Origin: Hyphomicrobiales bacterium
GTDB lineage: Bacteria > Pseudomonadota > Alphaproteobacteria > Rhizobiales > Xanthobacteraceae
Direction: 5' to 3'
NCBI GenBank assembly: GCA_021730985.1
Contig: JAKFYI010000012.1
Coordinates: 62,001-126,000, forward strand
Length of the DNA: 64,000 nucleotides
The translations under genes and the position numbers were made by a program. Shown here one piece after another: positions 61,591 through 63,871 of the stretch (positions are counted from its first letter, which is position 1; each line of letters opens with the position of its first letter). The notes beneath the pieces are model-generated. The model did no database searches. It was not told the DNA's origin and saw only the letters and a program-made list of their open reading frames with translations.

Positions 61591-61856
61591 TGGCCACCTC
61601 GACCGCGATCGCCATCTATTTTCTGATCTGGTGGCTGACGCTGTTCGCGGTGCTGCCGTGGGGCGTGAAAGCTCAAGGTGAGGAGGATGCCGCGCCCGGT
61701 ACCGATCCCGGCGCCCCGCGCGTGCCTCATCTCAAGGCCAAGCTGGCCTGGACCACGGTGGTGGCCAGCGTGATTTTCGCGATCGTCGCAGTCGTCTACG
61801 TTTACCGGCTGGTCACGCTTGACGGGCTGGCGGCGTGGATGGGCTTCCCGGCCTAG
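61590..61856 (+). CDS. DUF1467 family small membrane protein
   Basis: MATSTAIAIYFLIWWLTLFAVLPWGVKAQGE...PHLKAKLAWTTVVASVIFAIVAVVYVY; ATGA-type overlap with mce. Confidence 0.88.
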   Translation: MATSTAIAIYFLIWWLTLFAVLPWGVKAQGEEDAAPGTDPGAPRVPHLKAKLAWTTVVASVIFAIVAVVYVYRLVTLDGLAAWMGFPA

Positions 61857-62092
61857 CGGGGCAGCTTGCGCGGGGGCCTTGCGGGATATGGGGCGCGATA
61901 GGACGGGTTGGGAGCGCAGAAGCCACCGACCCCGGACACGGTTGCCCGGCACTGTTCCAGCGTCGTGAAACCGCAATTGGTGGCGCCGATGTCGTGGCCC
62001 ATGTTGGCGCACCAGGGATAGTCCTGCGCCGACGCCTTGTCGGTGGCGAACGCAGCCAGCAGAAGGCCGAGAGTCGCGAGCGCAATTCGCAT
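61853..62092 (-). CDS. DUF3551-like small exported Cys-containing protein
   Basis: MRIALATLGLLLAAFATDKASAQDYPWCANMGHDIGATNCGFTTLEQCRATVSGVGGFCAPNPSY. Confidence 0.75.
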   Translation of the reverse strand: MRIALATLGLLLAAFATDKASAQDYPWCANMGHDIGATNCGFTTLEQCRATVSGVGGFCAPNPSYRAPYPARPPRKLPR

Positions 62093-62192
62093 TGTGAAAC
62101 CTCCTGGTCGATCGCCCGCAGTTATGAACACCGGAGCGGTTTAGATGTTTCGGCCAGCGAAAACTAGGCGTGCGAAAGAATATGGAATTGGA

Positions 62193-62222
62193 AAAAAATG
62201 AGCAGGGCCAATGCCCTGCTCT
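62193..62222 (-). terminator. strong intrinsic terminator on the minus strand with no annotated upstream gene
   Basis: minus strand GAGCAGGGC-ATTG-GCCCTGCTC (9 bp perfect) followed by ATTTTTTT. Confidence 0.85.
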
Positions 62223-62357
62223 GGTCGGCGAAACCTGTTCCTTAGCCCTCGCGACCCGGTACGATCCTCGAGGCATGGGCGCAGTTGGCGCGCTTTGGAT
62301 TTTCTTCCCTAGACTCAGGCCGTAGCCGCCAACCACTGTCAGCCAGCTCCGCAACGC
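62193..62357 (-). ncRNA. candidate small RNA of unknown family (~165 nt)
   Basis: minus strand: ATGACA-N17-TAGATT promoter-like boxes (62392-62364), closing stem GGTTGGCG/CGCCGACC (62335-62328 with 62231-62224), terminator immediately after. Confidence 0.35.
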
Positions 62358-62548
62358 AGCGCAATCTAACCGGGTGTTTTGGTCTTGTCATTCATGCACC
62401 GCAGCAAAATGACCAGCTTGGCGGGCGCAAAGGCGGCGCGCGAGCCCGTCCATATCCCTCGGCCATGCCCTTGCCGCGCTTGTGTTTTCCCCTTTGATCC
62501 GGTTTCACTGCCGACGCATCCCGGGACGCCCCTCTTCAGAGACCAGCA

Positions 62549-63871
62549 ATGCGATTGACCCGATTTTTCCTGCCAATCCTGAAGGAGGCCCCCCGGGAGG
62601 CGGAGATCGTCTCGCACCGGCTCATGCTGCGCGCGGGCATGCTGCGGCAGCAGGCCGCCGGCATCTATTCGCTGCTGCCGCTGGGGCTGCGCGTCCTCAA
62701 CAAGGTCAACGCCATCGTGCGCGAGGAGCAGAACCGCGCCGGCGCCATCGAACTTCTCATGCCGACTGTTCAGCCGGCCGATCTGTGGCGCGAGAGCGGA
62801 CGCTACGACGACTACGGCAAAGAGATGCTGCGCATCCGGGACCGCCACGAGCGCGACATGCTCTATGGGCCGACCAACGAGGAAATGATCACCGAGATTT
62901 TCCGCGCTTACGTGCGCTCGTACAAGGATCTGCCGCTCAACCTCTATCACATCCAGCTCAAGTTCCGCGACGAGGTGCGGCCGCGCTTCGGGCTGATGCG
63001 CGGGCGTGAATTCTTGATGAAAGATGCGTACTCGTTCGACATCGACCAGGCGGGCGCTCAGCACTCCTACAACAGGATGTTCGTCGCGTACCTGCGCACC
63101 TTCGCGCGGCTGGGCCTGAAGTCGATTCCGATGGTGGCCGACACCGGCCCGATCGGCGGCAACCTGAGCCACGAGTTCATCATCCTGGCTTCCACCGGCG
63201 AGTCGGAGGTGTTCTGCCACAAGGACTATCTCGATTTCCCGGCGCCCGGCGCCGACGTAAATTTCGACGACCGGGCTGCGCTCCAGGGCGTTGTCGATAA
63301 ATGGACGTCGCTGTATTCGGCCACGTCCGAAAAGCACGACGCGGCGGCATTCGGCCAAATCCCCGCTGACAAGCAGGTGTCGGCGCGCGGCATTGAGGTC
63401 GGGCACATCTTCTATTTCGGTACCAAGTATTCCGAACCGATGAAGGCGGTGGTGGCTGGCCCGGACGGCGCCGACCATCCGGTTCACATGGGCTCCTACG
63501 GCATCGGCCCGACGCGGCTGGTCGCAGCCCTGATCGAGGCGAACCACGACGAGGCCGGCATCAAATGGCCGGAGGCCGTGGCCCCCTTCAAGGTCGCCAT
63601 CCTCAATCTCAAGCAGGGCGATGCGGCAACCGACGGCGCCTCGGAACGGCTCTATCGTGAGCTCACCGCCAAGGGCATCGACGTTCTGTACGACGATACC
63701 GAACAGAGGGCAGGCGGGAAATTCGCCACCGCCGACCTAATTGGTGTGCCCTGGCAAGTCCTGGTCGGCCCGAAGGGGCTCGGTGCCGGCACACTAGAGG
63801 TGAAGAAGCGTGCCGACGGCAGCCGGGAAAACCTCAGTCCCGAGGCCACGTTGGACCTACTGTCGCGATAA
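62549..63871 (+). CDS. proS: prolyl-tRNA synthetase (short alphaproteobacterial type)
   Basis: [79 protein letters not shown]. Confidence 0.96.

Follow-up and report, generated by a model that had tools for sequence, protein, structure and literature searches.

The small RNA alpha-r9 goes by several names: SmrC9, sra32, sm12 and SmelC289 in Sinorhizobium meliloti, and ReC25 in Rhizobium etli. In S. meliloti its gene lies between SMc01933 and proS in the orientation < < >, and the RNA, 149 nt in length, has been seen as bands on Northern blots and has had its 5' end mapped; homologues have been detected in Agrobacterium and R. etli (PMC2245857, PMC2573895, PMC2780559). Its promoter is gaTGAC-n17-CTA.AT, and the targets offered for it, fliM and smc01800, are computational predictions only (PMC2245857). 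The RNA is recovered by co-immunoprecipitation with Hfq (PMC2848018). A survey of 2011 collected 29 relatives of alpha-r9, from Rhizobiaceae, Brucellaceae and Phyllobacteriaceae only (PMC3927594).

I propose that positions 62356-62193 on the minus strand of the window (the whole stretch of DNA analysed, 64,000 nucleotides) are an autonomous sRNA gene orthologous to alpha-r9 (RF02343), with a sigma70-type promoter and an intrinsic terminator of its own. The probability that this reading is correct may be put at about 0.9. The sRNA is a real and unannotated gene, of a kind that is already known.

A transcription unit divergent from proS

The sigma70-type promoter, ATGACA-N17-TAGATT, would start a transcript of about 160 nt, running away from proS and ending at an intrinsic terminator with a U tract. 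From its 5' end the RNA would consist of a variable leader, a conserved GUCUnGGGAGGA core and a central domain whose two hairpins are as a rule enclosed by a co-varying helix; the terminator comes last. Sequence, conservation and covariation support this predicted layout and transcription unit, whose parts and neighbours are the following:

61853-62131, minus strand: DUF3551 gene, Pfam-confirmed, on the same strand as the sRNA and starting about 60 nt downstream of it
62192..62199, minus strand: ATTTTTTT tract, directly after the terminator hairpin
62193..62356, minus strand: sRNA gene of about 160 nt, probably a divergent orthologue of alpha-r9/SmrC9, from covariance model R1 and a weak Rfam ar9 match (5' end deduced from where the promoter lies, 3' end placed in the U tract)
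62200..62221, minus strand: intrinsic terminator hairpin, a perfect 9 bp, GAGCAGGGC-ATTG-GCCCTGCTC
62223..62230, minus strand: 3' arm, CGCCGACC, of the closing stem put forward by the sequence-only reading, ending one base before the terminator
62247..62273, minus strand: second hairpin of the central domain, CCTCG...CGAGG (helices 5 and 6 of A4)
62279..62293, minus strand: first hairpin of the central domain, GCGC-GCCAACT-GCGC, from sequence (its equivalent is helix 4 of A4)
62303..62314, minus strand: core, GTCTAGGGAAGA, counterpart of the family's nearly invariant GTCT(T/C)GGGAGGA
62327..62334, minus strand: 5' arm, GGUUGGCG, of the same closing stem
62363..62368, minus strand: -10-like box TAGATT of the sRNA promoter, from sequence and conservation in relatives
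62386..62391, minus strand: -35-like box ATGACA of the sRNA promoter, from sequence and conservation in relatives
62549..63871, plus strand: proS, with Pfam domains tRNA-synt_2b and HGTP_anticodon, the divergent neighbour

An earlier reading of the sequence by itself had pointed to the GC-rich 9-bp hairpin with its U tract, which is exact at 62221-62192 on the minus strand, and to the promoter-like boxes, which are likewise present and form the sole sigma70-like site in the 3.5-kb stretch scanned. Taken singly, promoter, terminator and folding energy do not rise above chance. A simple scan finds one promoter-like site where 0.7 are expected and three terminator-like sites where 2.6 are expected, and the 166-nt RNA, folded as a single sequence and compared with shuffles, gives a z of -1.57, which is not significant. 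The reality of the locus rests on conservation.

A search of 100 related genomes by DNA sequence matched 12 others, most of them aligned just over the terminator. Reading upstream from there, one comes in the window and its near relatives to a second conserved block, GGTCCAAGTCTTGGGAGGA, which precedes the terminator by about 90-100 nt, and nearly all such loci adjoin proS and DUF1467 (tblastn); the DUF1467 and prolyl-tRNA synthetase genes near the locus are Pfam-confirmed. DNA upstream of proS was taken from about 170 loci, and 98 of these (94 distinct) had core and terminator, the core being recognised by a pattern of its first nine bases with one mismatch allowed. NTGAC-N17..19-TA stands at a similar distance from the core in 88 of the 98, where shuffled sequences give 2.8 on average and never more than 9. 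Because the pattern recurs at a fixed range upstream in so many loci, the ATGACA-N17-TAGATT of the window is very probably a real promoter.

One locus from the window's own genus (L127, in genome G002) lacks the usual terminator after its core. The sequence there changes character near the end of the contig, and the absence may be an artefact of assembly.

Might the RNA instead be a small message, in which GGGAGGA is the ribosome-binding site of a short peptide? The core does resemble a Shine-Dalgarno sequence, but an ATG, GTG or TTG follows within 14 nt of it in only 18 of the 98 relatives. It had been claimed that the sole reading frame through the region runs on across the terminator. A 308-aa minus-strand ORF with a TTG start does so, but there is a second, of 49 aa with an ATG start (62242-62391, minus strand), that stops short of the terminator at 62242. 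Neither has a match in Pfam, and the portions of both that lie inside the RNA show no conservation at the protein level among the relatives compared; the matches of the 308-aa ORF to relatives fall chiefly in the part that runs antisense to DUF1467 and the genes next to it. Coding potential in the RNA region was rejected on the absence of Pfam matches and of protein conservation within the RNA, and a small mRNA is scarcely credible.

Then there is the DUF3551 gene, which begins some 60 nt downstream on the same strand, as it would if the RNA were its leader or attenuator and the terminator controlled read-through into it. It is too rarely there to make this anything but highly improbable. Among the nearly 90 family loci searched, DUF3551 accompanies the sRNA in only four (L125, L128, L138 and L139), yet RNA and terminator persist, and in many other loci a convergent DUF1467 stands in its place. 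It would seem that DUF3551 is a lineage-specific insertion, placed between the sRNA and DUF1467. A free-standing minus-strand sRNA, which the sequence-only reading had suggested, is strongly supported by conservation, by synteny and by homology to an sRNA that has been detected experimentally.

Kinship with alpha-r9

Ten relatives, and not the window, went into the covariance model R1. Applied to the window, it scores 46.4 bits (E=1.2e-10) at 62193-62347, minus strand, and applied to the 4.45-Mb genome it finds the same locus as its sole credible match (E=8.4e-9). The next-best match in the genome, at 14.5 bits (E=1.2), comes from reading the palindromic terminator on the opposite strand. That the terminator alone earns 14.5 bits in this way means that most of the 46.4 bits arises elsewhere in the RNA. 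In the family at large R1 recovers the RNA in 72 of 101 genomes.

Rfam, proposed beforehand as a check, gives an answer that depends on the threshold. At the gathering threshold a scan of the window returns tRNAs only; under a permissive threshold ar9 (RF02343) appears on the right strand, in a match that runs as far as the terminator, with 18.3 bits and E=2.6, below its cut-off of 45 bits. Taken alone that score would be noise. The claim is one of homology to alpha-r9, not of a match to the Rfam model. 6S RNA (RF00013), which had been named as a candidate, was rejected, having no match in either Rfam scan at any threshold tried, with E up to 10 on the region. Also set aside were sbrA, SorX and BSnc120, whose matches in relatives are weak and fall either within the half of the RNA that holds the terminator or just past it.

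It is the close relatives that bridge the gap between the window and alpha-r9. One of them (L003) scores 49.3 bits with Rfam ar9, above the cut-off, and 82.7 with R1, and from the other side R1 was tested on 30 Rfam-ar9 loci and matches the same place and strand in every one, with E<1e-4 in 22. Other relatives score 26-37 bits with Rfam ar9, and when relatives are placed in the Rfam alignment the CAAGUCUUGGGAGGA core falls in register, as do terminator and central hairpins. A search with RF02343 finds matches in 50 of 199 genomes of the order, 27 of them over the cut-off, and none in 14 control genomes. Rfam's ar9 I take to be SmrC9, from the alpha-r naming and from the shared position beside proS, promoter form and size.

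Position tells the same story. The proS gene marks the alpha-r9 locus throughout the order and adjoins all 30 Rfam-ar9 loci examined, and every one of the 68 R1 matches that share a contig with proS lies upstream of it on the opposite strand. Such constancy is what one would see if the RNA regulated proS in cis through a shared divergent promoter region. But the distance between the two, less than 1 kb in 42 of these 68 genomes, is 1.3-8 kb in the other 26, and there the RNA is conserved nonetheless; nor do the RNA and proS overlap. Because the RNA stays conserved 1.3-8 kb away, a role in trans is favoured and a cis tie to proS is very unlikely.

Three loci of one genus of the family (L231, L236 and L237), and a further genome (G277, at C7:115229-115385), have an alpha-r9-like RNA 3.5-8 kb from proS. 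These RNAs are below the Rfam cut-off where scanned, and their lineages lie outside the coverage of the 2011 survey (PMC3927594).

Fold, core and divergence of the window copy

A plain sequence alignment misplaces the helices, and pairs were counted on 43 sequences aligned to R1 (alignment A4). On this alignment, which, being fitted to a model, leans towards the structure used, two-sided changes occur in 24 of 31 pairs; with the partners shifted by 1-3 columns they occur in 9-13. The covariation score, 0.198, drops to 0.040-0.067 under such shifts. Helix 4 of A4 changes on both sides in 6 of 6 pairs, as do helices 5 and 6 (6 of 6). In helix 7, the terminator, pairing stands at 97.9%, and 5 of the 8 pairs show two-sided changes. 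Variation in the core helix is so slight that it offers no evidence from covariation. The central hairpins and the terminator are well supported by covariation, and the window retains them all.

The conserved closing helix, which co-varies in relatives, is formed by GAAAAGCC/GGCUUUUC in three relatives of the same genus (G003, G004 and G007), and the window's closest relative, G010, is able to form it as GAAAUC/GAUUUC. The window has only GAAA(AU)CC/GGUUUC, a weak version that R1 leaves unaligned; in the register of R1 most of its pairs are non-standard.

The sequence-only reading had closed the RNA by a different stem, of 8 bp. The arms, GGUUGGCG and CGCCGACC, exist, and the stem they can form is strong, but several of the closest relatives have no counterpart: in G003, G004 and G007 the terminator follows directly on the conserved inner helix, and there is no space between them for the 3' arm. 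The 5' arm can alternatively pair inside the 5' half of the RNA, as it does in the minimum-energy fold. A best-helix search for pairing between leader and pre-terminator in 94 relatives gives 12.2 against 11.1 for shuffled sequences, the window being exceptional at 23.6, and the same search gives 12.9 against 10.9 for the inner helix. Helix-forced folding in ViennaRNA did not enforce all pairs, and the constrained energies are only indicative. Since a short CGCG/CGCG helix occupies the corresponding position in the Rfam ar9 consensus, the 8-bp stem may be a local substitute, or chance.

As for the core, one element (GUCUnGGGAGGA) is nearly unchanged across the order; the Rfam ar9 consensus has it as gUCuUGGGAgGA. 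GTCT(T/C)GGGAGGA is found in 77 of the 94 distinct loci, but these were pattern-selected on the first nine bases of the core, so the counts are uninformative on more diverged copies. The window's GTCTAGGGAAGA agrees with the commonest form, GTCTTGGGAGGA, at 10 of 12 positions and occurs, among the loci compared, in the window only. Its first part is intact and its end is GGGAAGA, where the family has GGGAGGA. G010 also has an altered core. Elsewhere, L014:1380-1534 has a core-like segment twice (GGTCCAAGTTTTCAGGG and GGCCAAGTCTAGGGAG), possibly through an internal duplication.

The altered core and weak closing helix are the only unusual aspect of the window's copy, and they could reflect drift, decay or retargeting. 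By decay is meant that the locus descended from alpha-r9 and the copy in the window no longer works, which would explain both the altered core and the missing closing helix. That the core has changed in G010 as well, and that the RNAs of G010 and the window are just 55% identical despite 90% identity between their proS proteins, speak in its favour. Against it, the window has its promoter, its 9-bp terminator and the two central hairpins intact, along with the opening part of the core, and of the genus relatives all eight whose complete locus can be read keep promoter and terminator. Decay is therefore quite improbable. It is conceivable, though doubtful, that the window's lineage, perhaps together with G010's, has a retargeted variant of alpha-r9, with a changed core and with the inner closing helix swapped for the outer stem; if true, such a variant would regulate a different set of mRNAs.

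Probable role and likeness to described sRNAs

What, then, would a working alpha-r9 do in this organism? I lean towards a trans-acting regulator of mRNAs that pairs with them with the help of Hfq, the invariant core being its likely recognition element. The part given to Hfq comes from the S. meliloti orthologue, SmrC9, which binds the protein. Pairing with mRNA would take place through the core. Structure prediction makes the core no more single-stranded than other parts of the RNA, so it is conservation that argues for it as the recognition site, and an element so little changed over the order is the obvious place to look for target recognition. Expression in the source organism, binding of Hfq and pairing in trans through the core are what I infer from the orthologue and from conservation.

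The gain is one of annotation, not of surprise. If the proposed orthology is right, a known sRNA family, functionally uncharacterised, is extended to Xanthobacteraceae, where the Rfam model mostly scores below its cut-off.

Two other described RNAs invite comparison. 6S RNA (RF00013) is similar in size, and a long closing stem could be imagined for the window's RNA, but the window has no Rfam match to it. SmelC291/EcpR1 (sra33), about 13 kb from SmelC289, is like it a conserved, chromosomal, stand-alone trans-sRNA of S. meliloti (PMC7143759), but it differs in its flanking genes, celR2-rpmG, and in its loop motifs (PMC2245857, PMC3927594).

Against alpha-r9 itself the window's RNA differs in scoring below the Rfam cut-off, in the GGGAAGA end of its core, in a weak closing helix and in the possibility of an alternative 8-bp outer stem; it also falls in a family, Xanthobacteraceae sensu GTDB, beyond those in which the 2011 survey found its members. 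Both RNAs lie beside proS and diverge from it, both have a sigma70 promoter of the TGAC-N17-CTA type (with a predicted start site in the window), both are about 150-165 nt long with a U-tailed intrinsic terminator, and both have a GUCU-n-GGGA core and two hairpins in the middle domain.
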